From NCBI RefSeq assembly GCF_026210795.1, contig NC_089445.1, positions 1,488,001 through 1,552,000 of the forward strand: a stretch of 64,000 nucleotides of DNA, written 5' to 3'. Position numbers and translations under genes: made by a program. The notes below the pieces were generated by a model. It saw only the letters and a list, made by a program, of their open reading frames with translations. It searched no databases and had not been told where the DNA came from. Positions within the stretch are counted from its first letter, which is position 1. Each line of letters opens with the position of its first letter. The DNA comes from Rhizophagus irregularis (taxonomy: Eukaryota; Glomeromycota; Glomeromycetes; Glomerales; Glomeraceae). Positions 12,888 through 59,145 of this stretch are shown piece by piece.

Positions 12888-15800
12888 TTAAATCATTTGT
12901 AATAGCTTTGTTTTTATTATATAGTTACTATCTTTACTAATGCTCAGTTGAGAAATATCAATTTGTAAAGATTCTATTTAATGAATAAATAATCGTCACT
13001 ATTTTTTAAATGATAATTTGAATATTTTTTATAAATCAATACCTGAAGAATTCATACTAATATTATCACCATTTTTTTCATAAGTGTCATCAGAATTATC
13101 TGGTTCAGGAAAAATAATTTTTAATTGTAAATCATCAATTTGTAAATTTATTAACGTTTTTTATAATTAATTATATTTTTTTAAAAAAAAAAAATACCTG
13201 AGAATTCCATGTTAATATTATCATTTTTTCCATAAATATCATTAGAATTTTTTAATTCAAAAGAATTATTATTATTCAATTGAGAAATATCAATTTGTAA
13301 GGATTCTATTTAAAACCTTATTAGTATTTTTTACAATTAATATGAAGTCCTTTTTTTTTTTAATAATAAATACCTGAAAATTTTATGCTAATTATATTAT
13401 CATTTTCTTCATAATAATCATCAGAATTTTTTGGCTCAGGAAGATTATCAAAATCGAGTAATCTACTGGTATAAGTAGCTTCTGAGTGTGTTATGTATGA
13501 TGTTCCTAAATTTGAAGTTATACTACTATTTGATGAACTGTTATTTATTTCATTTGCTTCTTTAATTTGTTTTTGCATACTTGTATAATCACTAAGATTA
13601 CTAATATTTAACAAACTATTTGATTCTCTAAACCATTGGCTTAAAGTTTTTTTAATTTCTTCTGCATTTGGTCGATTTAATGGATTTGCATCCAAACATC
13701 TTTTAATTAAATACACAATCAATTGAGGTACTTTAATATTAAATCTTGGTCGAAGTCCTTTACAAATTTTCATTGCTAGCTTTAAATCATGACCTAAATC
13801 ATAAAACGGAGGTAATCCAGAAATTACTTCAAACATGATTATGCCAAAACTATAAATATCTGAAGCTTTGGTATAATTTTGTCCACGTAAAATTTCAGGG
13901 GCAATATAAGGCAAAATACCATATATTTTGTCTTTTGCATTCTCTGATGCATTATAATCAGCAGGTTTACATAACCCCAAATCAGTTATGCAAGTGAGAT
14001 TTTTGAGCCTTAATATATTACCAATATGCAAATCTCGATGTATTAATTCTATTTCATGAATATCTTCTAGTCCATGTGCAATGCTATGTAAATAATTAAA
14101 CTTATCACTCCAACCTAATTTATTATAACATGTGTCTAAATAATTTCGTAAACTTCCATTTTCTGCATAATCTAAAACCATAATGTAATTTTCTGTTTTT
14201 GGATCTTGAGTTATTCCATAAAATTTAATAAAGCGCTTATACAAATTTACTTTATGATGTAATATAATCTATGAATATTATAATTAAGTATTAATACCAA
14301 AAATTAAATGTTTATTAAGAATAGTTAAATAACTTACCTCATTCATAAATTCTAATGTAATATTTTTTGAATTATTTAAACTTTTAAGAGCTACAACCAT
14401 GTTTTGATCCTTTCTTTCCCAATTTTGATTATAGTCATCCCATTTATCTATATAACCATCAATCCATTTTGCTCTATATATTTTTCCAAACCCACCTTTT
14501 GTAATATATTTAATATCATAAAATCTATCATAAGGTATCCATTCTACTACATATGATATTTTACTATATTTATGAATTTGCTGGGTATTCCGAATGAATT
14601 CATCAATATTATGATTGCCACTAGTCCAATTTTTGAAATTTCGTTGAAAATGTATTGAATTACACACTTCATTACATTTTTCACATATATCATTCATAAC
14701 CATCATATAGTTCTTGGTTTCTGGATCTTGAGTTATTCCATAAACTTTATGAAACACTACAATCTACAATAGGTTACAGTAGAAATAATTGTAAAAATTT
14801 ATTAGTTTTTTAAATATTTTTTCACAAAATGGCACAGTACAATTGATTAATTTGTATAAATTTATTATACCTTATTTAATTCTGTTGTAATACCTGCTGA
14901 GTTATTTAGAATTTTCAGAGTTACAAACATATTTTGATCCGCTCTTTTCCAATTTTGATTTTTATCATCCCATTCAATTGTGTATCCATCAATCCATTTT
15001 GCTCTATACATTTTTCCAATCTCATCAACATATATATCATAAAGTTTATTATAAAATATCCATTCTAATGCATTTTTCACCTGATAAGTATGTTCTGATA
15101 GCTGAGTATTTTGAATGAATTTATCAATATCATTATTACCACTAGTCCAATTTTTGAAATTTCGTTGAAAATGTATTGAAATACACATTTTATTACATTT
15201 TTCACATATATCATCCAAAACCACCATATAATTCTTGGTTTCTGGATCTTGAGTTATTCCATAAACTTTATGAGTTCCTGCAATCTACAATATATTAAAG
15301 TTAGAAATATTAGTAAAAATAAATTTTTTAACTATTTATTTTTTAAACAACTGGCAATTTTTTCACAAAATGGTACAATACAATATGATTAATTTATATT
15401 TGATAAATTTATTACCCTACCTTATTTATAAATTCTAATGTAATATTTGCTGGATTATTTAAAATTTTCAGAAATACAGCCATATTTTGATTTTTTCTTT
15501 CCCAATTTAGATTTTTATCATCCCATTCAATTGTGTATCCATCAATCCATTTTGCTCTATACATTTTACCAATCTCATCAACATATATATCATAAAGTTT
15601 ACCATAAAGTATCCATTCTAATGCATTTTTCACCTGATAAGTATGTTCTGATAGCTGAGTATTTTGAATGAATTTATCAATATAATTATTACCACTAGTC
15701 CAATTTTTGAAATTTCGTTGAAAATGTATTGAAATACACATTTCATTACATTTTTCACATATATCATCCAAAACCACCATATAATTCTTGGTTTCTGGAT

Positions 15801-18800
15801 CTTGAGTTATTCCATAAACTTTATGAATTCCTGCAATCTACAATATATTAAAGTTAGAAATATTAGTAAAAATCAATTTTCTAACTATTTATTTTTTAAA
15901 CAACTGACAATTTTTTTACAATACAATATGATTAATTTATATTTGATAAATTTATTACCCTACCTTATTTATAAGTCCTAACGTAATATTTGCTGGATTA
16001 TTTAAAATTTTCAGATATACAGCCATATTTTGATTTCTCCTTCTCCAATTTTGATTTTTATCATTCCAATACCAAATACATCCATCAATCCAATTTTCTC
16101 TGTACACTTTGTCAATCTCATCATCTTCTGCAATATATGTATAAATTTTATCATAAGGTATCCATTCTAATGCATTTTCTACCTGATAATAAGCATGTAC
16201 TGATAGCTGAGTATCTTGAATAAATTTATCAATATGATAATTTCCACTAGTCCAATTTTTGAAATTTAGTTGAAAACGCATTGAATTACACACTTCATTA
16301 CATTTTTCACATTTAACTTTCAAAACTGCCATATAGCTCTTGGTTTCTGGATCTTGAGTTATTCCATAAACTTTATGAGATATTGCAATCTACAATATAT
16401 TAAAGCTAGAAATATTAGTAAAAATAAAGTTTTTAATTATTTGTTTTTTAAATAGCTGACAATTTTTTTCACAAATGGTACAATACAATGTGATTAAATT
16501 ATATTATAATTCACAAAAAAAAAATGAAACTTTTGATAAATTTATTATACCTTTTTTAATTCTGTTGTAATACCTGCTGGGTTATTTAGAATTTTAAGAA
16601 TTACAAACATATTTTGATCTGTTCTTTTCCAATTTTGATCTTCATCATCCAATTTAATGCATCCATCAATCCATTTTACTCTGCATACTATACTAAAGTC
16701 ATCATCATCTGCAATATATTCTACATCATACAGTCTATCATAAGGTATCCATTCTAATGCATTTTGTACCAAATAATGTACTGATAGCTGAATATCTTGA
16801 ATGTATTTATCAATATGATAATTTCCACTAGTCCAATTTTTAAAACTTCGCTGAAAATGTATTGAAATACATACTTTTTCACATTTTTCACATTTACCAT
16901 TTAAAACTACCATATAATTCTTGGTTTCTGGATTTTGAGTTATTCCATAAACTTTTTGAGGTACTGCAATCTACAATATATTAAAGTTAGAAATATTAGT
17001 AAAAATAAAATTTTTAACTATTTATTTTCTAAACAGCTAAAATTATTTTAACAAAATGGTACAGTACAATATGATTAATGTATATTAATTTACAAAAAAA
17101 TGAAACTTTTGATAAATTTAGTATACCTCATTTATAAATTTTAATGTAATACTTGATGGATTATTTAAAATTTCCAGAAATACAAACATATTTTGATTAT
17201 ATTTCCAATTTTGATTTTTATTATTCCAATAATAAATACATCCATCAATCCAATTTGCTCTGTACACTTTGTTAATCTCATCATCTTTTTCAAAATATAT
17301 GTCAAGTTTATCATAAGGTATCCATTCTAATGCATTTTTTACCGAATAATAATAAGGATAATAAGTATGTTCTGATAGCTGAATATCTTGAATGAATTTA
17401 TCAATATCATTATTACCACTAGTCCAATTTTTGAAATTTCGTTGAAAATGTATTGAATTACACATTTTATTACATTTTTCACATATATCATTAAAAACCA
17501 CTATATAGTTCTTGGTTTCTGGATTTTGAGTTATTCCATAAACTTTTTGAGGTACTGAAAACTACAGTATATTAGAGTTAAAAATATTAGTAAAAATAAA
17601 ATTTTAACTATTGGTTTTTTAAATAACTGACAATTTTTTTCACAAAATGGCACAGTACAATATGATTAATTTATATTAATTTACAAAAAAATGTAACTTA
17701 TTATACCTTATTTAATTCTGCTGTAATATCTGCTGGATTATTTAAAATTTTCAGAGTTACAAACATATATTGATCTGCTCTTTTACAATTTTGATTTTCA
17801 TCATCCCATTTATTTATACATCCATCAATCCAATTTGCTCTGTACACTTTATCAATCTCATCATCTTCTGCAATAGTATATGTATCAAGTCTATCATAAG
17901 GTATCCATTCTAATGCATTTTGCATCCAAAAAGTATGTTCTGATAGCTGAGTATCTTGAATAAATTTATCAATATCATTATTACCACTAGTCCAATTTTT
18001 GAAATTTCGTTGAAAATGTATTGAATTACACAATTTATTACATTTTTCACATATATTATTAAAAACCACTATATAGTTCTTGGTTACTGGATTTTGAGTT
18101 ATTCCATAAACTTTTTGAGGTACTGGAAACTACAGTATATTAAAGTTAAAAATATTAGTAAAAATAAAATTTTAACTATTGGTTTTTTAAATAACTGACA
18201 ATTTTTTTCACAAAATGGCACAGTACAATATGATTAATTTATATTAATTTACAAAAAAATGTAACTTAAGATAAATTTATTATACCTTATTTAATTCTGC
18301 TGTAATATCTGCTGGATTATTTAAAATTTTCAGAGTTATAAACATATTTTGATCCGCTCTTTTCCAATTTTGATTTTCATTATCCCATTTATTTATACAT
18401 CCATCAATCCAATTTGCTCTGTACATTTTGTTAATTTCATCAACATATATATCATAAAGTTTATTATAAAATATCCATTCTAATGCATTTTTCACCTGAT
18501 AAGTATGTTCTGATAGCTGAGTATCTTGAATAAATTTATCAATATCATTATTATCACTAGTCCAATTTTTGAAATTTCGTTGAAAATGTATTGAATTACA
18601 CACTTCATTACATTTTTTACACATATCATTAAAAACCACCATATAGTTCTTAGTTTCTGGATCTTGAGTTATTCCACAAGCTTTATAAGGTATTGCAATC
18701 TACAATAATTTAAAGTTAGAAATATTAGTAAAATAAAATTTTTAACTATATGTTTTTTAAACAGCTGACAATTTTTTTCACAAATGGTACAGTACAATAT

Positions 18801-21800
18801 AACTAGTCATATTTGATAAATTTACTATACCTTATTTATAAATTCTAATGTAGTATTTGCTGGATTATTTAAAATTTTCAGAGTTACAAACCTATTTTGA
18901 TCTGTTCTTTCCCAATTTTGATTTTTATTATTCCAATAACAAATACATCCATCAGTCCAATTTGTTCTGTACACTCTATCAATCTCATCATCTTCTGCAA
19001 TATATGTATCAAGTCTATCATAAGGTATCCATTCTAATGCATTTCGTACCCTAAAAGTATGTTCTGATAGCTGAGTATCTTGAATTAATTTATCAATATC
19101 ATTATTACCACTAGTCCAATTTTTGAAATTTCGTTGAAAATGTATTGAATTACACACTTCATTACATTTTTCACACATATCATTCAAAACCACCATATAG
19201 TTCTTGGTTTCTGGATCTTGAGTTATTCCACAAGCTTTATAAGGTATTGCAATCTACAATAATTTAAAGTTAGAAATATTAGTAAAGTAAAATTTTTAAC
19301 TATTTGTTTTTTAAATAGCTAACGATTTTTTCACAAATGGTACAGTACAATATGATTAATTTATATTTGATAAATTTACTATACCTTATTTATAAATTCT
19401 AATGTAATACTTACTGGATTGTTTAAAATTTTCAGATTTACAACCATATTTTGATCTGTTCTTTCCCAATTTTGAATTTTATTATTCCAATAATAAATAC
19501 ATCCATCAATCCAAATTTTATTAAGCTCGCAATATATGTATTAAGTTTATCATAAGGTATCCATTCTAATGCATTTCGTACCCAAGAAGTATGTTTTGAT
19601 AGCTGAGTTTCTTGAATGAATTTATCAATATCATTATTACCACTAGTCCAATTTTTGAAATTTCGTTGAAAATGTATTGAAATACACACTTTATTACATT
19701 TTTCACATATATCATTCAAAACCACCATATAGTTCTTGGATTCTGGATCTTGAGTTATTCCACAAGCTTTATAAGGTATTGCAATCTACAATAATTTAAA
19801 GTTAGAAATATTAGTAAAAATATAATTTTTAACTATTTGATTTTTAAATAGCTATCGATTTTTTTCACAAATGGTACAGTACAATATGATTAATTTATAT
19901 TTGATAAATTTACTATACCTTATTTATAAATTCTAATGTAATACTTGCTGGATTGTTTAAAATTTTCAGATTTACAAACATATTTTGATCTGTTCTTTCC
20001 CAATTTTGATTTTTATTATTCCAATTATAAATACATCCATCAATCCAATTTGCTCTATACATTTTATCAAGCTCATCATCTTCTGCAACATATGTATTAA
20101 GTTTATCATAAGGTATCCATTCTAATGCATTTCGTACCCAAGAAGTATGTTCTGATAGCTGAGTTTCTTGAATGAATTTATCAATATCATTGTTACCACT
20201 AGTCCAATTTTTGAAATTTCGTTGAAAATGTATTGAAATACACACTTCATTACATTTTTCACATATATCATTCAAAACCACCATATAATTCTTGGTTTCT
20301 GGATCTTGAGTTATTCCATAAACTTTATGAGGTATTGCAATCTACAATATATTATAGTTTTAAACAGCTGGCAAATTTTCACAAATGATACAGTACAATA
20401 TGATTAATTTATATTTGATAAATTTACTATACCTTATTTAATTCTGATGTAATACTTTCTGGATTATTTAAAATTTTCAGAATTATAAACATATTTTGAT
20501 TTTTTCTTTTCCAATCTTGATTTTCATCATCCCATTTATTTATACATCCATCAATCCAATTTGCTCTGTACATTTTGTTAATTTCATCATCTTTTGCAAA
20601 ATATAAATCAAGACCATCATAAGGTATCCATTCTAATGCATTTTCTACCTCATAATAAGTATGTTCTGATAGCTGAGTATCTTGAATAAATTTATCACTA
20701 TCATTATTACCACTAGTCCAATTTTTGAAATTTCGTTGAAAATGTATTGAAATACACACTTCATTACATTTTTCACATATATCATTTAAAACCACCATAT
20801 AGTTCTTGGTTTCTGGATTTTGAGTTATTCCATAAACTTTATGAGGTGTTGCAATCTACAATATATTAAAGTTTTAAACAGCTGACAATTTTTCAAAATA
20901 GTACAGTACAATATGATTAATTTATATTTGATAAATTTACTATACCTTATTTATAAATTCTAATGTAATATTTACTGGATTGTTTAAAATTTTCAGAGTT
21001 ACAAACATATTTTGGTCTGTTCTTTTCCAATTTTGATTTTTATTATTCCAATAACAAATACATCCATCAATCCAATTTGCTCTATACATTTTATCAAGCT
21101 CATCATCTTCTGTAATATATGTATCAAGTCTATCATAAGGTATCCATTCTAATGCATTTTGTACCCAAAAAGTATGTTTTGATAGCTGAGTATCTTGAAT
21201 GAATTTATCAATATAACTTTTACCACTAGACCAATTTTTGAAATTTCGTTGAAAATGTATTGAAATACACATTTTATTACATTTTTCACATATATCATTC
21301 AAAACCACCATATAGTTCTTGGTTTCTGGATCTTGAGTTATTCCATAAACTTTATGAGGTATTGCAATCTACAATATATTATAGTTTTAAACAGCTGGCC
21401 ATTTTTCACAAATGGTACAGTACAATATGATCAATTTATATTTGATAAATTTACTATACCTTATTTAATTCTGATGTAATACTTGCTGGATTATTTAAAA
21501 TTTTCAGAATTATAAACATATTTTGATCTTTTCTTTTCCAATCTTGATTTTCATCATCCCATTTATTTATACATCCATCAATCCAATTTGCTCTGTACAC
21601 TTTGTTAATTTCATCATCTTTTGCAAAATATATATCAAGCCCATCATAAGGTATCCATTCTAATGCATTTTCTACCTGATAATAAGTATGTTCTGATAGC
21701 TGAGTATCTTGAATAAATTTATCAATATCATTATTACCACTAGTCCAATTTTTGAAATTTCGTTGAAAATGTATTGAAATACACACTTCATTACATTTTT

Positions 21801-22415
21801 CACATATATCATTTAAAACCACCATATAGTTCTTGGTTTCTGGATCTCGAGTTATTCCATAAACTTTATGAGGTATTGTGATCTACAATATATTAAAGTT
21901 AGAAATATTGGCAAAAATAAAATTTTAATTTTTTATTTTTTAAACAGCTGATAATTTTTTCACAAAATGGCACAGTACAATAGTATTTATATTAATTTAT
22001 AAAAAAAATGAAACTTTGGATAAATTTACTATACCTTATTTATAAATTCTAATGTAATACTTGATGGATTATTTAAAATTTTCAGAAATACAAACATATT
22101 TTGATCTTCTCTCATCCAATTTTGATTTTCATCATCCCATTTATTTATGCATCCATCAATCCATTTTGCTCTGTACGTTTTAATCTTATCAACATATAAT
22201 ATACTATCACAAAGTCTATCATAAGGTATCCATTCTAATGCTTGACACGTAAAATGATTATGATCTGTTAGTTGAGTATTTTGAATAAGCTTATTAACAT
22301 GATAATTTCCGCTAGTCCAATTTTTAAAATTTCGTTTAAACCGTTTTGCGTTACATTTATAATTACAATCACATGATTTAATCAGCTTTTTACCACTTTT
22401 GATAAAAGAATCCAT
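12888..22415 (-). CDS. TKL-type protein kinase with 15 tandem N-lobe exons
   Basis: Intron-rich kinase gene. Exons, 5' to 3': 22415-22035, 21882-21460, 21368-20946, 20855-20433, 20341-19919, 19785-19385, 19253-18831, 18699-18286, 18129-17707, 17561-17127, 16970-16551, 16389-15964, 15837-15421, 15284-14871, 14763-14338, 14268-13374, 13305-13198, 12973-12888 (TAA). All phases agree except in exon 6. Start MDSFIKSGKK. Each repeat has CxxCN, FKNWTSGN..ID.FI, (A)LEWIPYD, YRA.WIDG and LKILNN. Only exon 15 keeps a glycine loop (KGGFGKIY) with VALK. The 895-nt exon holds the hinge, catalytic loop HRDLHIGN, DLG in place of DFG, and APE (APEILRG), so catalysis is plausible. Family knowledge: serine/threonine or dual-specificity kinases expanded in this lineage; the substrate is unknown. 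Exon 6 has a 22-bp deletion, so full-length translation needs that exon skipped. Confidence 0.8.
13043..13153 (-). pseudogene. Decayed tail exon with lost acceptor
   Basis: Sequence homologous to the other tail exons reads LQIDDLQL...IIFPEPDNSDDTYEKNGDNI and keeps the phase-1 donor TTCAG|gtattg at 13043. The AG expected before AATAAATTTACAAATT is absent (TT instead) and no other AG lies nearby upstream. It is probably skipped, which leaves the frame unchanged. Confidence 0.5.
14338..22415 (-). repeat. Tandem array of N-lobe exons (15 units, about 510-590 bp)
   Basis: Exon lengths are 381 (first), then 423, 423, 423, 423, 401, 423, 414, 423, 435, 420, 426, 417, 414 and 426 nt, separated by introns of about 90-160 nt. 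All internal units begin with ATTGCA-type sequence encoding HKVYGITQDPETKNYM and end in phase 0, so units can be gained or lost in frame (401 being the exception). Units starting at 21460, 20946, 20433 and 19919 are spaced 513-514 bp and alternate between two subtypes (WDDENQDWKRK and WNNKNQNW), which indicates a recent two-unit duplication. Confidence 0.9.
19385..19785 (-). other. Frameshifted repeat exon 6
   Basis: Compared with its neighbour at 19919-20341 this exon lacks 22 bp around 19515-19520 (between the WIDG codons and the IPYDKLNTY codons). The length of 401 nt is not a multiple of three, and the frame after the YIA codons ends early. Splice sites are intact (gtag before ATT at 19785, AAG|gtatag at 19385). 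Because both flanking introns are phase 0, skipping the exon restores the frame. Confidence 0.8.
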
Positions 22416-45744: not shown

Positions 45745-46567
45745 CAAGAATAACATATCAGATATTATTTAAAGACAGGTCAATATTTTTAATAAGTTAC
45801 CAATAATCTCATATCTCCTGCAAAAGATTAGAAAGAGTTTTTGTGATTTATATTAAAAAAGGGATGGCTTTTATAACAAAATATGACAAAGAAAAATAAT
45901 ATTAGTTGATTGTATGTCTTCAAATAAAATTAAAAAATGACTTGTCTTTGTGACGACAGCAGATTCTCATTATTTACGAATTTTCACTGATCGACATTTG
46001 GATCACGAATTAATAAACTTATTTTCCAGGTTTATTTTAAAAAATTTAGCGTATACTTAATTGTAAATAATTTTAATATAAAACAATAATACATTATCTA
46101 CCTGTTTAACAATATGAATTTATTATTTTTAAATATAATATCATGAAATTATTTAATTTATAATAGTTTTATAAGCGTTAAATATTAAAATAAGTATATG
46201 CCGATCATTTTCAAGTTGGTTTTAATGAAAAATCAAAAGTGATAATTAAAACTTTCTTTGCTGTTCTTTGTTATTCTAAGTAAACTTGCAAAGTAGCCAA
46301 ATATAATCTTAATGACTTTTAATATTTAATATGTATTAAGAAAATTTTCTCTATTTTGTGATTTTTGATACGTAATAATGAGATGATTGACATGCATTCC
46401 GAACATTGCAAATTTTGTTTGTCATACATGCAATGCTTGTACTTGTGATCAACATTTGTATACAATGCGTTTTGCATAAATATTATTACGTACTAATAAG
46501 ATGTTTAATATATAAATAATAAAAAAAAAAAAGAAAACAAAATATTTACTCTTATCTTTCCAATTAG
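45745..46567. other. Upstream flank of the microexon kinase
   Basis: The region just 5' of the first supported exon. 46381-46475 carries Cys-rich readings in two frames (for example EHCKFC and CHTCNACTCDQH) and could hold the true first exon, but no phase-compatible donor was found. TACTAAT at 46491 and a TCTTATCTTTCCAATTAG acceptor at 46567 show that an intron probably ends here. Confidence 0.4.
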
Positions 46568-49500
46568 GAAGAATTTGATATAGCAATGGAACAATGTATT
46601 GGATGTGTTAATAGAGGTAATTATACAGCATAAATATATAATATAAAATTAGAATTATCCTGTCAAAACCTTTAAACAATTTTGCAAATATAAACTAACT
46701 ATAGTATATAAAAATTATATTAAATAATTTAGCCCGTAAGTTAATAGGTTATCCTATAATCAAATTAAATTAAATTATAACAGATAATGGAATTAATTAT
46801 TATCTTTACTCTATGTAACTATTTAATGATTAATAATACTATAGTTTGTAAGTTATCAATTATTTAAATTTTTTAGTTTTTTACTTTACTTATTTTACAT
46901 AATATTCAAATAACTAAATTCTTTGTTTAAATAACTAATTAATTATATTACAGCTGGTAAGTTATAATACTTAAGTTAATATTATACTTATTGATTAATG
47001 TTTTAATATAATTTAACTAATTATATTCTTAATTTAAATAAATAGATTGTAAGTAATATATTTAATTTATAGTGAATACATTTCTATTATATTTATATTT
47101 AACTAATTAAAAATTAACAATAATTCAGGGTGTAAGTTATATGATGTCTATATTTCTATTGTTATACAATTTAAGCTAACAAAATTCTTTATTTTAAAAA
47201 ATTATTTAAATAATATAGTTTGTAAGTTATTTATTTAATTCTATTATTACTTATTGTTATAATATTTAGATTTAATTTAAACTAACCAAATTCTTTATTT
47301 AAAAAATTATTTTGTAATTTCTTTTAGATGGTAAGTCATAAGTTATTTATTTAATTCTATTATTACTTATTGTCATAATATTTACATATAATTTTAACTA
47401 ACTAAATTTTTTATTTAAAACATTATTTTGTAATTTATTTTAGATGGTAAGTTATTTATTTAATTCTATTATTGCTTATTGTTATAATATTTACACAACT
47501 AAATTCTTTATTTAAAAAATTATTTTGTAATTTCTTTAGATAGTAAGTTATTTATTTAATTCTATCATTACTTATTGTTATAATATATATAATTTATTAA
47601 ACTAACTAAATTCTTTATTTAAAAAATTATTTTGTAATTTCATTTAGATAGTAAGTTATTTATTTAATTCTATTATTACTTATTGTTATAATATTTATAT
47701 ATAATTAAACTTACTAGTAAATTCTTTATTTAAAAAAATTATTTTGTAATTTCATTTAGATAGTAAGTTATTTATTTAATTCTATTATTACTTATTGTTA
47801 TAATATTTATATATTATTTAAACTAATTAAATTCTTTATTTAAAAATTATTTAAATAATATAGTTTGTAAGTTATTTATTTAATTCTATCATTATATTAC
47901 TTATTGTTATAATATTTATAAATAATTTAAACTAATAACTAAATTCTTTATTGAAAAATTATTTAAATAATATAGGGAGTAAGTTATTTATTTAATTCTA
48001 TTATTACTTATTGCTATAATATTTACATATAATTTAAACTAACTAAATTCTTTATTAAAAAATTATCTAAATAATATAGTGAGTAAGTTATTTATTTAAT
48101 TCTATTATTACTTATTGCTATAATATTTATATATAATTTAAACTAACTAAATTCTTTATTAAAAAATTATTTAAATAATATAGGGAGTAAGTTATTTATT
48201 TAATTCTATTATTACTTATTATTATAGTATTTACATATAATTTAAACTAACTAAATTCTTTATTTAAAAATTATTTTGTAATTTATTTTAGTTGGTAAGT
48301 CATAAGTTATTTATTTAATTCTATTATTACTTATTGTTATAATGTTTAAACTAACTAAATTCCTTATATAAAAAATTATTTAAATAATATAGTTTGTAAG
48401 TTATTTATTTAATTCTATTATTACTTGTTGTTATAATATTTATATATAATTTAAACTAACTAAATTCTTTATTTAAAAAATTATTTTGTAATTTCTTCTA
48501 GATAGTAAGTTATTTATTTAAGGAAAGAACATTTTTACGCGGGTGCGTAGCAATGCACCCGCTTTTTGGTATAGTAAATATGTCAATCAATTTTTATCCC
48601 ATAACATCATTAAATTTTCTGATTTTTGAATAAATGTCGCATAAACTTTATGCACATATTATAAAGCTTTTAAAAGACACGTACTATGCGTATTTTAGCT
48701 TGCCCTACAACTTTACTTAAAGACTGAAGTATGGTTTAGAATGGTGTTTTTGACTTTTATATATGATATATTATAAAGGATGTGTTGCAATGCACCTGCA
48801 TATAAAATTTAAACCCTTTAATTAATTCTATTATTACTTATTGTCATAACGTTTACATATAATTTAAACTAACTAAATTTTTTATTTAACAAATTATTTT
48901 GTAATTTATTTTAGATGGTAAGTTATTTATTTAATTCTATTATTACTTATTGTTACATATAATTTAAACTAACTAAATTCTTTATTTAAAAAATTATTTT
49001 GTAATTTCTTTTAGATGGTAAGTTATTTATTTAATTCTATTATTACTTATTGTTATAATATTTACATATAATTAAACTAATTAAATTCTTTATCTAAAAA
49101 ATTATTTAAATAATATAGGGAGTAAGTTATATATTTATTGTTATAATATTTATATATAATTTAAACTAACTAAATTCTTTATTTAAAAATTATTTTGTAA
49201 TTTCTTTTAGATGGCAAGTTATTTATTTAATTCTATTATTACTTATTGCTATAATATTTATATATAATTTAAACTAACTAAATTCTTTATTTTACATAAT
49301 ATAGAGAGTAAGCTATTTATTTAATTCTATTATTACTTATTGCTATAATATTTACATATAATTAAATTCTTTATTTAAATTATTTTATGATTTATTTTAG
49401 TTGGTAAGCCATAAGTTATTTTTTAATTCAATCATTACTTATTATTATAATATTTACATATAATTTTAACTAAATAAATTCTTTATTTAAAAAATTAATT

Positions 49501-52500
49501 AAATAATTTAGAGGGTAAGTTAATTATTTAATTCTATTATTACTTATTGTCATAATATTTACATATAATTTAAACTATCTAAATTCTTTATTTAACAAAT
49601 TATTTAAATAATATAGGGTGTAAGTTATTTATTTAATTCTATTATTACTTATTGTTATAATATTTACATATAATTTAAACTAACTAAATTCTTTATTTAA
49701 AAAATTATTTAAATAATATAGGGAGTAAGTTATTTATTTTAATTCTATTATTATTTATTGTTATAATATTTACATATTATTTAAATTATAATAATATAGA
49801 GAGTAAGTTATTTATTTTTCAATTCTATTATTACTTATTGTTATAATATTTACATATAATTTAAACTAACTAAATTCTTTACTTAAAAAATTATTTAAAT
49901 AATATAGGGAGTAAGTTATTTATTTAATTCTATTACTTATTGCTATAATATTTATATATAATTTAAATTAACTAAATTCTTTATTTAAAAATTAATTAAA
50001 TAATATAGAGTGTAAGTTATTTATTTAATTCTATTATTACTTATTGTTATAATATTTATATATAATTTAAACTAACTAATTTCTTTATTTAAAAAATTAT
50101 TCAAATAATATAGGGGGTAAGTTAATTATTTAATTCTATTATTACTTATTGTTATAATATTTACATATAATTTAAACTAACTAATTTCTTTATTTAAAAT
50201 TATTTAAATAATATAGAGAGTAAGTTATTTATTTAATTCTATTATTACTTATTGTTATAATATTTATATATAATTTAAATTAACTAAACTTCTTTTTTAA
50301 AATTATTTTGTAATTTATTTTAGTTGGTAAGTAATAAGTTATTTTTTTAATTCTATTATTACTTATTGTTATAATATTTACATATAATTTAAACTAATTA
50401 AATTCTTTATTTAAAAAATTATTCAAATAATATAGGGGGTAAGTTAATTATTTAATTCTATTATTATTTTAATACTTATTGTTATAATATTTACATATAA
50501 TTTAAACTAACTAAATTCTTTATTAAAATTATATAAATAATATAGATAGTAAGTTATTTATTTCATTCTATTATTACTTATTGTTATAATATTTACATAT
50601 AATTTAAACTAACTAAATTCTTTATTTTAAAATTATTTTGTAATTTCTTTTAGATGGTAAGTTATTTATTAATTCTATTATTAATTATTGTTATAATATT
50701 TGCTACATATAATTTAAACTAACTAAATTCTTTATTTAATAGATCGTAAATTATAAATTATTTATTTTTCAATTCTATTATTACTTATAATATTTACATA
50801 TAATTTAAATTAATTAAATCTTTATTTAAAAATTATTTAAATAATATAGGGAGTATGTTATTTATTTAATTATATTAGTACTTATTGTTATAATATTTAC
50901 ATATAATTTAAACTAACTAAATTCTTTATTTAATAGACTGTAAGTTATAAGTTATTTATTATTACTTATTGTTATAATATTTACATATAATTTAAACTAA
51001 CTAAATTATTGAAAAATTATTTGTAATTTCTTTTAGATGGTAAGTTATTTATTTAATTCTATTATTACTTATTGCTATAATATTTACATATAATTTAAAC
51101 TAACTAAATTCTTTATTTAATAGATCGTAAGTTTTAAGTTATTTATTTTTTTAATTCTATTATAACTTATCGTTATAATATTTACATATAATTTAAACTA
51201 ACTTAAATCTTTATTTTAAAAAATTATTTAAATAATATAGCTCGTAAGTTATTTTTTTAATTCTATTTTTATTGTTATAATATTTACATATAATTTAGAC
51301 TAACTGATTTCTTTATTAAATAGATCGTAAGTTATAAGTTATTTATTTAATTCTGTTATTACTTATTGTTATCATAATATTTACATATAAATTAAACTAA
51401 CTAAATTCTTTATTTAAAAAATTATTTTGTAATTTATTTTAGTTGGTAAGTCATAAGTTATTTATTTAAATCTATAATTACTCATTGTTATAATATTTAC
51501 ATATCTGATATAATTTAAACTAACTAAATTTTTTATTTAATAGATCGTAAGTTATAAGCTATTTATTTAATTCTATTATTACTTATTGATATAATATTTA
51601 TATATAATTTATTAAACTAACTTAATTCTTTATTTAAAAAATTATTTTATAATTTATTTTAGTTGGTAAGTCATATCTATTATTACTTATTGTTATAATA
51701 TTTACATATAATTTAGACTAACTAAATTCTTTATTTAATAGATTGTAAGTTATAAGTTATTTATTTTTTTAATTCTATTATTACTTATTGTTATAATATT
51801 TACATATAATTTAAATTAACTAAATTCTTTATTTAAAAAATTATTTATATAATATAGATAGTAAGTTCTTTATTTAATTCTATTATTACTTATTGTTGTA
51901 ATATATATTTACATATAATTTAAGCTAACTAAATTCTTTATTTAAAAAATTATTTAAATAATATAGAGAGCAAGTTATTTATTTAATTCTATTATTACTT
52001 ATTGCTATAATATTTACATATAATTTAAACTAACTAAATTCTTTATTTAAAAAATTGTTTAAATAATATAGTTCGTAAGTCATTTATTTAATTCTATTAT
52101 TAATTATTGTTATAATATTTACATATAATTTAAGCCAACTAAATTCTTTATTTAAAAAATTATTTTATAATTTATTTTAGTTAGTAAGTCATAAATTATT
52201 TATTTAATCCTATTAGGGTGCTGTCAGTTATTACCTAATATTTTAGGGGGAGGGGTAACTAAAGATCTTAGGTTCGTTATATATAATACTATGTAAGGAA
52301 TTATATATATAACATGTCTTACCTGGGGGGAGGTTAAGCATAAGTTCTTATATTAAAGTGATATTAGGTAAAATCTGACAGTGCCCTTATTATTTATTGT
52401 TATGATATTTACATATAATTTGAACTAACTAAATTATTTATTTAAAAAATTATTTAAATAATATAGGGGGTAAGTTATTTATTCAATTCTATTATTACTT

Positions 52501-55500
52501 ATTATTATAATATTTACATATAATTTAAACTAACTAATTCTTTATTTAAAAAATTATTTTGTAATTTATTTTAGATGGTAAGTTATTTATTTAATTCTAT
52601 TAACACTTATTATTATAATATTTACATATAATTTAAACTAACTACTAATTCTTTATTTAAAAAAATATTTTTGTAATTTCTTTTAGATAGTAAGTTATTT
52701 ATTTAATTCTATTGTTATTTATTGTTATAATATTTACATATAATTTAAACTAACTAAATTCTTTATTTAAAAAATTATTTTTTAGTTGGTAAGTCATAAA
52801 TTATTTATTTAATTCTATTAGGGTGCTGTCAAATATTACCTAATATTTTAGGGGGTAACTAAAGATCTTAGGTTACATATAATACAATATAAGGAATTAT
52901 ATATATAATATATCTTACCTAAGGGGGGAGGGTAAGCTCTTATATTAAAGTGATATTAGGTAATATCTGACAGTACCCTTATTATTTATTGTTATAATAT
53001 TTACATACAGTATAATTTAAACTAACTAAATTCTTTATTTAAAAAATTATTTTGTAATTTATTTTAGATAGCAAGTTATTTTTGATTATATAATTACTTA
53101 TTGTTATAATATTTACATATAATTTAAACTAACTAAATTCTTTATTTAAAAAATTATTTAAATAATATAGCTCGTATGTTATTTTTTAATTCTATTATTA
53201 CTTATTGTTATAATATTTACATATAAATTAAACTAACTAAATTCTTTTTTTAAAAATTATTCTGTAATTTATTTTAGTTAGTAAGTCATAAGTTGTTTAT
53301 TTAATTCTATTAATATTTACATATAATTTAAACTAATTAAATTCTTTATTTAAAAAATTATTTAAATAATATAGGGTGTAAGTTATTTATTTAATTCTAT
53401 TATTACTTATTGTTATAATATTTACATATAATTTAAACTAACAAATTTATTTATTTAAAAAATTATTTAAACATTATAGGGTGTAAGTTATTTATTATTA
53501 CTTATTGTTATAATATTTATATATAATTTAAACTAACTAAATTCTTTATTTAAAAAATTATTTAAATAATATAGGGTGTAAGTTATTTATTATTACTTGT
53601 TGTTATAATATTTACATATAATTTAAACTCTTTATTTAAAAAATTATTTAAATAATATAGTTCGTAAGTTATTTATTTAATTCTATTATAATATTTATAT
53701 ATAATTTAAACTAACTAAATTCTTTATTTAAAAAATTATTTAAATAATATAGCTCGTAAGTTATTTATTTAATTCTATTATTACTTATTGTTATAATATT
53801 CATATATAATTTAAACTAACTAAATTCTTTATTTAAAAAATTATTTAAATAATATAGGGTGTAAGTTATTTAATTAATTCTATTATTACTTATAGTTATA
53901 TATTATTTATATATAATTTAAACTAACTAAGTTCTTTATTTTAAATAATATAGCTTGTAAGTTATTTATTTAATTTTATTATTACTTTAATTTAAACTAA
54001 CTAAATTCTTTATTTATTTAAATAATATAGGGAGTAAGTTATTTATTTAATACTATTATTACTTATTTTTATAATTTTACATATAATTTAAACTAACTAA
54101 ATTCTTTATTTAAAAAATTATTTAAATAATATAGAGAGTAAGTTATTTATTTAATTCTATTATTACTTATTTTTATAATATCTACATATAATTTAAACTA
54201 ACTAAATTCTTTATTTGATAGGTTGTAAGTTATAAGTTATTTATTTTTTTAATTCTGTTATTACTTATTGTTATAATATTTATGTATAATTTAAACTAAC
54301 TAATTTCTTTATTTAAAAAATTATTCAAATAATATAGTTTGTAAGTTACTTATATAATTCTATTATTACTTTCTGTTATAATATTTACATATAATTTAAT
54401 CTAACTAAATTCTTTATTTAAAAAATTATTTTATGATTTATTTTAGTTGGTAAGTCATAAATTATTTATTTAATTCTATCATTATTTATTATTATAATAT
54501 TTACATATAATTTAAACTAACTAAATTTCTTATTTAAAAAATTATTTAAATAATGTAGAGGGTAAGTTTATTATTTAATTCTAATATTACTTATTGTTAT
54601 AATATTACATTATAATTTAAACTAACTAAATTCTTTATTTAATAAATTATTTTGTAATTTCTTTTAGATGGTATGTTATTTATTTAATTCTATTATTACT
54701 TATTGTTATAACATTTACATATATATAATTTAAGGCAATTTCTATTTGTACACGGGGTGTTTAAACACGGGTCATATTAGTAAATTAAAAACGGCATTCA
54801 AAACCTCCTTTAATGCCTTAAGTAAACTTGCAGAGCAGGTGAAAATACATATATTTATCTGTAATATAATAAGAATAAAAAGTAAAAGAGTATAATGTCG
54901 GTAGCATTCAATTTCAAATTAAAAAACAAAAAATTAGTCTATTAAAAATTATATTTATATGACCTGTGTACAAACACCCCGTGTAAACCTAGAAATTTTC
55001 ATAATTTAAACTAACTAAATTCTTTATTTAAAAATTATTTTGTAATTTTTTTTAGATAGTAAGTTATTTATTTAATTTTATTGTTATAATATTTACATAT
55101 AATTTAAACTAACTAAATTCTTTATTTAAAAAATTATTTTGTAATTTCTTTTAGATAGTAATAAGTCATTTATTTAATTCTATTATTACTTATAATATTT
55201 ACATATAATTTAAACTAACTAAATTCTTTATTTAAAAATTATTTTGTAATTTATTTTAGTTAGTAAGTCATAAGTTATTTAAAATTCTATTATTACTTAC
55301 TTATTATTATAATATTTACATATAATCTAAACTAACTAAATTCTTTATTTAAAAAATTATTTTGTAATTTATTTTAGTTGGTAAGTCATAAGTTATTTAT
55401 TTATTAATTCTATTATTACTTATTGTTATAATATTTACATATAATTTAAATTAACTAAATTCTTTATTTAAAAAATTATTTTGTAATTTATTTTAGTTGG

Positions 55501-58500
55501 TAAGTTGTAAGCTATTTATTTATTCTATTATTACTTATTGTTATAATATTTACATATAATTTAACTAACTAAATTCTTTATTTAAAAAATTATTTTGTAA
55601 TTTCTTTTAGATGGCAAGTCATAAGTTATTTATTTAATTCTATCATTACTTATTGTTATAATATTTACATATAATTTAACTAACTAAATTCTTTATTTAA
55701 AAAATTATTTTGTAATTTCTTTTAGATGGTAAGTCATAAATTATTTATTTAAATTTATTATTACTTATTGTTATAATATTTACATATAATTTAAATTAAT
55801 TAATTTCTTTATTTAAAAATTATTTTGTAATTTCTTTTAGATGGTAAGTTATAAGTTATTTATTTAATTCTATTATTACTTATTGTTATAATATTTACAT
55901 ATTATTTAAACTAACTAAATTCTTTATTTGAAAAATTATTTAAATAATATAGTTTGTAAGTTATTTATTTAATTTTATTATTACTTATTGTTATAAATTA
56001 CATATAATTTAACTAACTAAATTCTTTATTTAAAAAATTATTTTGCATTTATTTTAGTTGGTATTATATCATAAGTTATTATTTAATTCTATTATTACTT
56101 ATTGTTATAATATTTACATATAATTTAACTAACTAAATTCTTTATTTAAAAAATTGTTTTGTAATTTCTTTTAGATGGTAAGTCATAAATTATTTATTTA
56201 ATTCTATTATTACTTATTTTTATAATATTTACATATAATTTAAATTAATTAATTTCTTTATTTAAAAATTATTTTGTAATTTCTTTTAGATGGTAAGTTA
56301 TAAGTTATTTATTTTTTGATTCTATTATTACTTATTGTTATATTATTTACATATAACTTAAATTAACTAAATTTTTTATTTAAAAAATTATTTTGTAATT
56401 TCTTTTAGATGGTAAGTTATAAGTTATTTAATTCTATTATTACTTATTGTTATAATATTTACATATTATTTAAACTAACTAAATTCTTTATTTAAAAAAT
56501 TATTTTATAATTTTTTTAGATAGTAAGTTATTATTTAATTTTATTATTATTACTTATTGTTATAATATTTACATATTATTTAAACTAACTAAATTCTTTA
56601 TTTAAAAAATTATTTTATAATTTTTTTAGATAGTAAGTTATTATTTAATTTTATTATTATTACTTATTGTTATAATATTTACATATAATTTAAACTTTTT
56701 ATTTAAAAAATTATTTAAATAATATAGTTCGTAAGTTATTTATTTAATTCTATTATTACTTATTGTTATATTATTTACATATAATTTAAACTAACTAAAT
56801 TCTTTATTTTAAAAATTATTTTGCAACTTCTTTTAGTTAGTAAGTCATAAGTTATTTATTTAATTCTATTATTACTTATCATTATAATATTTACATATAA
56901 TTTAATTCTTTATTTAAAAAATTACTTAAATAATATAGTTTGTAAGTTATTTATTTAATTCTACTATTACTTATTGCTATATTATTTACATATAATTTAG
57001 ACTAACTAAATTCTTTATTTAAAAAATTATTTTGTAATTTCTTTTAGATGGTAATTTATTTTTAATTCATTTATTAATTATTGTTATAATATTTACATAT
57101 AATTTATACTACTAACTAAATTCTTTATTTAAAAAATTATTTAAATAATATAGTTTGTAAGTTACTTATTTAATTCTATTATTAGTTTATTACTTATTAT
57201 TATAATATTTACATATTATTTAAACTAATAAATTCTTTATTTAAAAAATTATTTTGCAATTTCTTTTAGATGGTGAGTTATTTATTTAATTCTATTATTA
57301 TTTATTACTTATTGTTATAATATTTACATATAATTTAAACTAACTATACTCTTTATTTGAAAAATTATTTTTAATTTCTTTTAGATGGTAAGTTATATTT
57401 TTTAATTCTATTATTACTTATTATTACAATATTTACATATATTTAAACTAATCAAATTCTTTATTTAAAAAATTATTTAATAATATAGCTTGTAAGTTAT
57501 AAGTTATTTCTATTGTTATATATTTTATATAATATTTATTTGTTAGCTGTATTCTTTTATTTTAAAATTTCTATTACTTTAGTTGGTAAGTTATGAAATA
57601 TAGCTTATTATTATATATATTTATACAAAAACTAAGACATATATTATTTTAAATTCCTATTTAAATTTTAGAGTAAGTGTTAATTTTAGTGTAAATTTTA
57701 TTATAAACTTTTATATAATTTTAATTATTTAAATTTATAGATTTGGAAAAAGTGGAAACATAATCATAGATGAATTTATTCTTGAGAAAAAGTTAAGATG
57801 GATTCCTTATAATAAATTTAAAAGTGTTGAATATCTTGATAAAGGAGGATTTGGTACTATATACAAAGCTATTTGGTCAAATTATGATGGAGATAGAGAA
57901 GTAATTCTTAAGTGTCATAGTAATTTAAATGAAAATTTAGATGAATTTTTAAATGAAGTATGATAGTGTATTATTATTTTTTAATTTAAATTATAATTTA
58001 CTTATATTAATATATTATTATTTTTTATAGTGGAAATATCATGGAAGTTGTTTAGGATCATATGAAATTATTAATTTTTATGGATTTACAAAAAATCCAA
58101 ATACTTCGAAATATATGGCAGTAATGGATTATGCAAACAAAGGTAATTTAAGAAGAAACTTAACAAGAATAATTAAAAGTGATTGGGGTCAAAAATTATG
58201 CATGTTGTATGACATTATTTCTGGACTTAATGATATACATGAAGAAAATCTTATTCATCATGATTTTCATGATGGCAATATTTTAAATCATGATGAACAT
58301 AAAATTTATATATGTGATTTAGGATTATGTCAACCTGTAAAATCATTATTGAAAGAACATAATATTTATGGTGTTGTACCATTTATGGCACCTGAAGTTT
58401 TAAGAGGCAAAACTTATACTCCAGCTAGTGATATATATAGTTTTTCTATGATTATGTGGGAATTTACATCTGGAATACCACCATTTAATAATAGAGCACA

Positions 58501-59145
58501 TGATATTCAACTTAGTTTAAGTATTTGTGAAGGTGAACGTCCTAAAATTATTGAAAATACTCCACAATGTTATATAGATTTAATGAAAAAATGTTGGGAT
58601 GAAGATCCATTAAAAAGGCCATCTTCTAAGGAAGTTTCAAAGATTATTAAAGAATGGATTTTTCTTCCTTATGGTAAAAAAATTGAAGACATTAATGAAG
58701 AATTAAAATGCAATATTATGGAATTTATAAATGCACCAATTGGGCATAACAATAATCTTGCTACTGAATCTCACCCACAGGCTTTCTATACAAGTCGCTT
58801 ACTTAATTTTACTAGTAAACAATTAAATGAAATTCTTGAAAGTGAAAATTCACAAACTAGTGTACAAGTGAGTGAAATGCTAGTAAGCAAAGATTTGAAT
58901 GAATGTATGATTGATTCGAAGACATTAGGTATGTAAAGTGTATATAATATAGCTGGTATAATATAAAATAAATTAATTTACAAATTAATTAATTTTATTT
59001 ATTAATATTTAGATATTAAAACAAATGAAAATTAACTAATTATTTGTGTTTTAAAAAAGACAGTTTTTTTTGTAATATTTGATATTATGCATTTAGCAAA
59101 AAATTGTTCTTCATTTTATTCTTTTTAGATTTATTTAAACACTAA
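46568..59145 (+). CDS. TKL-type kinase gene with about 97 microexons
   Basis: Exon 46568-46616 (49 nt) is open in one frame only (EEFDIAMEQCIGCVNR + 1 nt, phase 1; ATG at 46586). Next come 96 candidate 3-nt exons and one 1-nt exon (57672). Kinase exon 57741-57957 follows, with a 1-nt codon end, then FGKSGNIIIDEFI, WIPYNKF, the glycine loop DKGGFGTIYKAIW and VILK. Exon 58031-58928 holds hinge VMDYANKG, catalytic loop HHDFHDGN (His for Arg), DLG, and APEVLRG with PASDIYSF, ending at TTAG|gtatgt in phase 1. Last exon 59129-59145 encodes DLFKH and TAA. Active-site Lys, both Asp positions and Asn are present, so activity is plausible. The spliced product would have about 97 residues between the CIGC motif and the SGN motif. 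The upstream exon, and hence the true start, is unresolved. The kinase part is certain; microexon use is inferred from sequence alone. Confidence 0.7.
48520..48821. mobile_element. Inserted element with hairpin ends in an array intron
   Basis: About 300 bp interrupts an array unit. The left end contains the perfect palindrome-like GCGGGTGCGTAGCAATGCAC followed by CCGC; the right end has GGATGTGTTGCAATGCACCT, then GC, and both outer ends are AAGG.../...CCTT. The ends are imperfect inverted repeats of about 40 bp. The exact target duplication is unclear (possibly TTAA). It lies between modules 48502 and 48915 and leaves both intact. Confidence 0.6.
52216..52386. mobile_element. Harbinger-like MITE in the array, copy 1
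   Basis: The 171-bp element begins GGGTGCTGTCAGTTATTACC and ends with the inverse of GGGCACTGTCAGATTTTACC, flanked by TTA on both sides (52213-52215 and 52387-52389). A 3-bp TTA duplication and GGG termini fit PIF/Harbinger. It sits in the intron between modules 52181 and 52467. Confidence 0.8.
52821..52978. mobile_element. Harbinger-like MITE in the array, copy 2
   Basis: A second, 158-bp copy of the element at 52216, inserted at the same position of the repeat unit (after ATTCTATTA) with TTA on both sides. The common position suggests either target preference or spread with a duplicated array segment. Modules 52786 and 53068 on its sides are intact. Confidence 0.8.
54734..55000. mobile_element. 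Mutator-like MITE in the array, 9-bp target duplication
   Basis: The 267-bp element has inverted ends of about 40 bp (CAATTTCTATTTGTACACGG...GTGTTTAAACAC left; inverse of AAATTTCTAGGTTTACACGG right), flanked by a perfect 9-bp direct repeat ATAATTTAA (54725-54733 and 55001-55009). A 9-bp duplication fits the Mutator superfamily. It lies in the intron between modules 54668 and 55056. Confidence 0.85.
57672..57672 (+). other. Predicted 1-nt exon at the end of the array
   Basis: AAATTTTAG, then A, then GTAAGTG. The only module in the series that is not 3 nt long. The array carries phase 1 from the first exon; the kinase exon at 57741 needs phase 2 (one base, then TTT GGA AAA). One extra base is exactly what is required. 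Confidence 0.5.

Follow-up and report, generated by a model that had tools for sequence, protein, structure and literature searches.

Introduction

For the micro-exon genes of schistosomes, work by DeMarco from 2010 is among the sources cited (PMC7653826). By an operational definition, a micro-exon gene has seven or more exons, half or more of which are micro-exons (shorter than 70 nucleotides [nt] and divisible by three), with at least four of them in a run (PMC7653826). Exons of a single nucleotide, placed between AG and GT and needed for phase, occur in APC11 of Arabidopsis (PMC4674806) and in CYP621A of Fusarium, the latter being termed the second reported case (PMC12940212). The homothorax gene of Drosophila possesses a single, alternatively spliced exon of 3 nt (PMC7392893), and fungal stwintrons, in which one intron lies inside a splice signal of another, are removed by consecutive splicing reactions and in some cases form families of similar sequence (PMC5639578; PMC8469720; PMC9024468). 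Here, we analyze a 64,000-nt stretch of the genome of the fungus Rhizophagus irregularis (contig NC_089445.1 of assembly GCF_026210795.1, positions 1,488,001 to 1,552,000, forward strand), which in its entirety is called the window. Judged from its sequence, it very probably harbors a kinase gene in which 96 exons of one codon each and a final 1-nt exon lie between the start exon and the kinase domain and are spliced and translated.

The predicted gene resembles the micro-exon genes of schistosomes and tapeworms in that consecutive very short exons divisible by three make up much of the gene (PMC7653826), and its 96 consecutive 3-nt exons fall within the length and run limits of the above definition. 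It differs from them in that every array exon comprises one codon (rarely two), with up to 96 in a row; in that, set against their published description (PMC7653826), its introns are tandem near-identical repeats and its array ends with a 1-nt exon; and in that it encodes a fungal kinase without a sign of selection for skipped products, an indirect test of skipping through stop codons having revealed no comparable depletion when units two to eight apart were paired. Anyone classifying the gene solely by the operational definition would see in it an extreme micro-exon gene. While the 1-nt exons of APC11 and CYP621A belong to one gene and to one set of orthologs, respectively (PMC4674806; PMC12940212), 75 exact copies of the corresponding signature are present in this one genome, adjoining an array at the parsed loci. 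With homothorax (PMC7392893) the gene shares the 3-nt exon, which is arrayed rather than single, and with stwintrons the putative consecutive splicing reactions; unlike in stwintrons, each unit has a complete donor and acceptor of its own, and 3 nt are left between the introns. No account of such one-codon exon arrays was found in open-licence PubMed Central among the matches listed, as represented by titles and abstract openings. Taken one by one, exons of 3 nt, exons of 1 nt and series of short exons are already known.

Results

A predicted kinase gene with 96 one-codon exons

A scan of positions 46560-58030 of the window with the regular expression [CT]AG-NNN-donor yielded 97 matches. One of these, at 52852, lies within an inserted element and was dropped; the remaining 96 units form an array on the plus strand (46733-57585) that extends from the triplet CCC (46733-46735) to the triplet TTG (57583-57585). 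There are 21 kinds of triplets, 92 GT and four GC donors (exactly GTAAGT in 82 of the 96 units), and the median intron measures 104 nt. An earlier interpretation of this DNA (the sequence-only reading) had described about 97 tandem units and 96 exons, each unit having AG, three bases and GT or, in four cases, GC in the same place. Our counts agree with this description, the 97th match of the scan being the one in the inserted element.

A start exon that ends in phase 1 (ATG ... AGA G; MEQCIGCVNR followed by G) is predicted from a comparison of phase-1 frames at 46586-46616 (plus strand), with GTAATT as its donor. The introns that follow it and each of the triplets are in phase 1. Every codon is therefore spread over two neighboring units, taking its first base from the end of one and its other two from the beginning of the next, and a swap of one unit consequently alters two codons. 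The sequence-only reading, in which each unit adds exactly one amino acid, is thus correct in that there is one residue per unit and the window frame closes, but the codons themselves are split between units. Read in phase 1, the 96 array residues are free of stops. Phase 0 gives one stop (a TGA triplet) and phase 2 gives 31; only phase 1 is fully open.

Downstream of the array, paralog comparison places the first kinase exon (FGKSGNIIIDEFI...WIPYNKF...GGFGTIYKA) at 57741-57957 on the plus strand, where it starts with one base (A) ahead of its F codon. The phases of the start exon and of the kinase exon cannot be bridged by triplets alone, and one further base is therefore needed. It would be supplied by a 1-nt exon (A; AG-A-GTAAGT) at 57672-57672 of the plus strand, which connects the frame of the array with that of the kinase exon; the final intron is in phase 2. 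The sequence-only reading had not included this exon. Once all 96 triplets are joined and the 1-nt exon is added, the predicted coding sequence runs in frame and without a stop from the ATG through the whole of the first kinase exon, and the array contributes 289 bases (96 triplets and the A) to the predicted transcript. A second candidate for a 1-nt exon (AG-T-GTAAAT near 57690) was set aside, its site being missing in several paralogs.

The second kinase exon (58031-58936, plus strand) is open to its stop and matches the Pfam families PF07714 (E 1.1e-34; 120.4 bits vs. a curated cut-off of 23.1) and PF00069 (E 2.5e-32; 112.7 bits vs. 31.7). The first kinase exon alone matched no Pfam family. 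What had been read as one intact TKL kinase exon hence corresponds to two open exons, the second of which carries the kinase match; the kinase is presumably of the TKL type.

Arrays are found throughout a kinase gene family

We searched the genome of R. irregularis (146,748,485 bases in 32 contigs), whose kinase repertoire is given as 2,533 members in an account that also mentions gene models from Nanopore and Illumina data (PMC10234402). At least 150 candidate matches to the kinase exon were scored genome-wide. Besides the window, a search with the repeat unit revealed 13 places among the matches listed; as assessed by eye, a kinase-exon match follows each of these arrays a few kilobases or less downstream. 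These 13 places, together with 16 high-ranking kinase matches not chosen for arrays, constitute sample 1, and arrays were present in all 29 of its paralogs. Sample 2 comprises 30 paralogs from lower in the kinase-exon list that were chosen by us and not at random; arrays were found in 28, of which 27 have between 11 and 24 called units within roughly 2.5 kilobases and one (L031) has three, and the other two (L053 and L058), in which the array or the kinase exon was not placed, were left out. Two further arrays, detected with a search for unit pairs and without a kinase match among those listed (L060 and L061), also sit upstream of such kinase exons. In total, arrays were inspected at 63 loci of a genome with at least 75 kinase-exon signatures. 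The array is accordingly not confined to the one gene that the sequence-only reading had considered. A strict two-unit pattern occurred 2330 times (1166 + 1164) in the genome and was absent (0) from a reversed control; since it catches 524 of 1290 known pairs, extrapolation leads to approximately 5,700 adjacent unit pairs.

The 13 other loci with a known array start have 8 to 45 called units (8 in L013, 45 in L004), in comparison with 96 in the window. The array start CCC-TTT-CTG-ATT-GGT is common to L006, L007, L013 and the window, and other loci show shorter or related forms; ATT-GGT was found at the array start of 14 of the 17 loci examined, and TTG is the last unit in 54 of 62. The 1-nt exon is present in all 58 analyzed loci, in 56 as detected with a regular expression (A in 53, G in three) and in L057 and L003 as judged by eye. 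In L057 it is followed by the donor GTTAGT, and in L003 an insertion has displaced it from the kinase exon. The first base of the first kinase exon is A in 54 of the 58 loci. Genome-wide, 75 exact matches to a signature made up of the 1-nt exon and the kinase-exon start were counted, as opposed to 0 in the reversed control. Among the additional loci, L062, L063 and L065 have no stops and L060 has six units; L060 to L065 lie outside the pooled stop test described below, and L061 was not parsed.

A 17-residue query from the start exon matched nothing in the genome but the window, and the start exons of paralogs were therefore chosen by eye. At 14 loci with the last upstream exon picked in this way, the phase-1 frame was open before the donor in every case, and in 13 of them neither of the other two frames was longer; in L027, phase 0 exceeds it by one codon. 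The start exons read at other loci (MDHK, MDHR, MDQCIDK etc.) are devoid of a CxxC motif. The upstream exon with CxxC that had been reported for the window is thus present there, while its motif is not conserved among the paralogs read, and we rejected a zinc-binding interpretation of it. L003, L012, L025 and L027 possess a different exon upstream of the array that ends in phase 1 (in L025 it is built of short repeats such as GSGTEEFE); hence, the part before the array varies among loci too.

Finally, we searched the genome with a composite query for a processed, contiguous copy that contains the spliced peptide; none was among the matches shown. In most of the matches listed, the alignment set in at position 6 or 7, at which the residues are intron-derived. 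A few began earlier; those inspected among them include L009, L010, L034 and L045, all four with arrays, and the majority of the others were not inspected.

Adjacent units avoid joint stop codons

A satellite and a spliced array can be told apart, since only ordered splicing and translation would tie the bases of neighboring units, about 100 nt apart, to each other. We counted stops among the phase-1 codons formed across adjacent units and derived the expectation from shuffles of the unit order within loci. The pooled test covers 1290 junctions at 58 loci, and of the 96 window units 94 were called and entered it. At 18 loci the start of the array was placed manually, as was the start of the kinase exon in L014, L051 and L052. 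A single stop was observed in place of the 44.1 expected (TAG, 0 vs. 23.6; TGA, 0 vs. 9.0; TAA, 1 vs. 11.4). Counting distinct pairs only left one stop vs. 42.3 expected, and among the interior junctions (first five and last three units dropped; n = 829) there was none vs. 26.6 expected. At unit distances 2 to 8, in contrast, observed and expected numbers were 43/42.0, 31/40.0, 42/38.0, 44/35.9, 39/33.9, 31/31.9 and 40/29.8, respectively.

Both samples displayed the avoidance between adjacent units. In sample 1 (30 loci including the window; 820 units), one stop was found vs. 23.3 expected, the lowest value in 2000 shuffles being 12; in sample 2 (28 loci; 528 units), there was no stop vs. 20.6 expected, the lowest value in 2000 shuffles being 8. 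The units of sample 2 were called with a splice-site matrix that had been trained on sample 1 and is blind to the triplets. An earlier version of the test based on regular expressions found two stops vs. 24.6 expected in 824 units, one of them due to a missed unit of L005. The strength of the test comes from the family and not from the window alone.

We see no cause for the link between adjacent units but ordered splicing of neighbors followed by translation, which we infer because the linked bases lie about 100 nt apart in the DNA. The stop avoidance in two samples thus speaks in favor of the unit-by-unit splicing proposed in the sequence-only reading, with splicing deduced from selection. 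Units farther apart show no comparable depletion, which speaks against skipping as a routine event.

Exon length and retention of the splice sites

When the exon length was left free between 1 and 12 nt, 56 of 60 loci were called (L014, L051, L052 and L058 were not). Of 1271 exons, 1250 were 3 nt long, 11 measured 6 nt, four 7 nt, three 10 nt and three 1 nt. Of the ten calls with other lengths than 3 or 6 nt, nine have a 3-nt reading by eye; the tenth, a 1-nt call in L056, does not. Exons of 6 nt were observed near the array end in L008 (ATACTT and ATTCTT), L046 (ATTCTT) and L057 (TTTCTT), where relatives have 3-nt units. Several of them (ATTCTT in L008 and L046, TTTCTT in L057) look like fused neighboring units, and they may be a record of intron loss or the state that precedes intron gain. 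In L051, the usual TTG unit before the 1-nt exon has given way to a longer exon, which on inspection by eye is open in phase 1; it precedes the 1-nt exon, which at this locus is G rather than A.

Between successive strict matches to the intron body, the block AG-NNN-GT was kept in all 206 intervals (200 called, six by eye), which are a small and selected fraction, the strict motif leaving out merged introns.

The codons vary more than the introns around them

Among within-locus unit pairs with no mismatch in 50 flanking bases, 24.9 percent of the triplet sites differ (349 pairs), and with one or two flank mismatches (3.1 percent flank divergence) 38.4 percent do (595 pairs). In pairs with no more than one mismatch in 80 flanking bases, the triplet is different in 108 of 272, by one base in 62, by two in 20 and by all three in 26. 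Triplet positions 1 and 3, which set the amino acid, differ in 0.295 and 0.309 of the flank-identical pairs, and position 2, the third codon position, in 0.143; with loci weighted equally and up to two flank mismatches allowed, the values are 0.324, 0.378 and 0.151 for positions 1, 3 and 2, respectively. The pairs are not independent of each other (L001 and L004 provide 135 of the 272), and the composition of triplet position 2 is skewed. The earlier statement that triplets vary while intron bodies are nearly alike is confirmed by these data, triplet differences exceeding the flank divergence. The far greater variability of the codons suggests, as a lead, diversifying selection or targeted exchange.

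Where two paralogs share 95 to 98 percent identity in their kinase exons, their arrays are for the most part unlike each other, as judged by eye. Blocks of several units are duplicated in L002, L026 and L040 and give rise to repeated peptides (FNDHRFNDHRF; WIDHRFVN...WIDHRFVN), which shows that block duplication is one route by which arrays grow.

Discussion

Taken together, the array with its splice signals, the closure of the window frame and the stop avoidance confined to adjacent units make it very likely that the one-codon exons are transcribed, spliced and translated. The spliceosome would take out the introns singly. Definition of an exon of 3 nt as such does not appear plausible, and we infer intron definition with stepwise removal; the same argument was made against exon definition of the 1-nt exon of APC11, for which intron definition and stepwise removal were favored (PMC4674806). 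The order of removal would most likely be stepwise and recursive-like, with exon 1 growing by three bases at each step, and all units would normally be included in their genomic order, the product being a kinase with a variable N-terminal peptide. We also count in favor of this structure the longer exon beside the 1-nt exon of L051, which seems to be open in the same phase.

Several findings weigh against it. Taken by itself, the window is weak evidence, zero stops having been reached in 632 of 5000 shuffles. The shuffles treat units as exchangeable, but blocks of units duplicate, so the probabilities are inexact. Some non-stop codons at the junctions are also off expectation (ACA, 1 vs. 6.6; ATG, 2 vs. 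6.0; GGT, 3 vs. 6.8; GGG, 48 vs. 77.2; GTT, 57 vs. 83.3). L020 contains an in-frame stop junction (CGT/AAC), and one unit of L056 can be read only as 1 nt. L064 has two 2-nt units (AG-GA-GTAAGT; locus positions 164 and 751) that lie in two copies of the same block of units; as written, they disrupt the frame, and they account for two stops forced by the caller. The AG-NNN-GT block has wholly gone, with two introns merged, twice in L002, in L003, in L008 and several times in L011 (by eye), and further cases in L011 and L014 are unclear; such a joint loss of both splice sites preserves the frame.

In the sequence-only reading, the main alternative was a satellite grown from one intron and a 3-nt exon and never spliced unit by unit; we take it to be removed as one long intron, its triplets remaining untranslated. 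Tandem, near-identical units, array sizes that differ greatly and the insertion of other elements are what one would expect of a satellite. Yet adjacent triplets avoid joint stops also in the interior of the arrays (0 vs. 26.6), and joining 46616 directly to 57741 shifts the frame and leads to a TAA at the eighth codon from the split one; we regard this alternative as disfavored and extremely unlikely. Exceedingly improbable, too, is a transcript that begins within or after the array and yields the kinase without the peptide, which would leave unexplained both the stop avoidance between adjacent interior units and the phase-1 start exon that paralogs have in common.

The remaining alternatives accept splicing of the units. 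They could be skipped in many combinations to create a large set of isoforms, in the manner of flatworm micro-exon genes, which are said to vary by exon skipping (PMC7653826); nearly all units are multiples of three, and skipping would preserve the frame. Against this stands the lack of a comparable stop depletion at skip junctions (43 vs. 42.0 at distance 2). We consider combinatorial inclusion unlikely: nothing indicates that selection favors skipped products as the rule, and low-level skipping is compatible with the data. Were the arrays formerly spliced and translated and many of them now decaying as pseudogenes, the units of L020, L056 and L064 that disrupt the reading would find an explanation, as would the internal stops in five kinase exons among the matches listed; the remaining kinase exons among these matches (about 150 scored) are without internal stop, and a single stop in 1290 junctions, despite fast triplet divergence, makes widespread decay very unlikely.

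If the array is indeed spliced codon by codon, duplication, loss or exchange of a unit would alter roughly one residue of the peptide and leave the frame intact. Variability of this kind on a kinase family suggests a role of the peptide in recognition or signaling specificity. Going further, we tentatively put forward as possible a family that is edited codon by codon, in which the near-identical introns would serve as recombination cassettes and the codons as a variable payload, rewritten much faster through diversifying selection or targeted mutation or exchange; each kinase would thereby acquire a hypervariable recognition peptide with a role comparable to that of immune or self-recognition repertoires.

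Were the predicted structure correct, the spliceosome of R. irregularis would cope with close to 100 consecutive 3-nt exons in a transcript, and a 1-nt exon would be routine throughout a whole gene family. An amino-acid sequence could be stored as single codons on a scaffold of introns and be varied in steps of roughly one residue with no risk to the frame. The N-termini in gene models of this kinase family may then well be wrong, and the arrays would offer a direct route to testing how minimal exons are recognized.

Other features of the window

Four introns of the window array exceed 140 nt, and each holds an inserted element with boundaries set approximately by eye and no strand assigned. 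Elements at 48521-48815 and 54735-55005 lie in introns of 410 nt and 385 nt, respectively. The element at 52209-52390 has inverted ends (AGGGTGCTGTCA ... TGACAGTGCCCT) and lies in an intron of 283 nt; a second, similar one in the neighboring intron (52819-52985) contains the false unit match at 52852. These last two resemble miniature transposons.

Elsewhere in the window, about 12 similar open reading frames, most of around 140 amino acids (VYGITQ-PETKNYMVV ... CEKCN ... NWTSGN-IDKFIQ), are arranged in tandem on the minus strand at 14284-22415. They resemble repeats of one exon from a different kinase gene and perhaps represent alternative exons.

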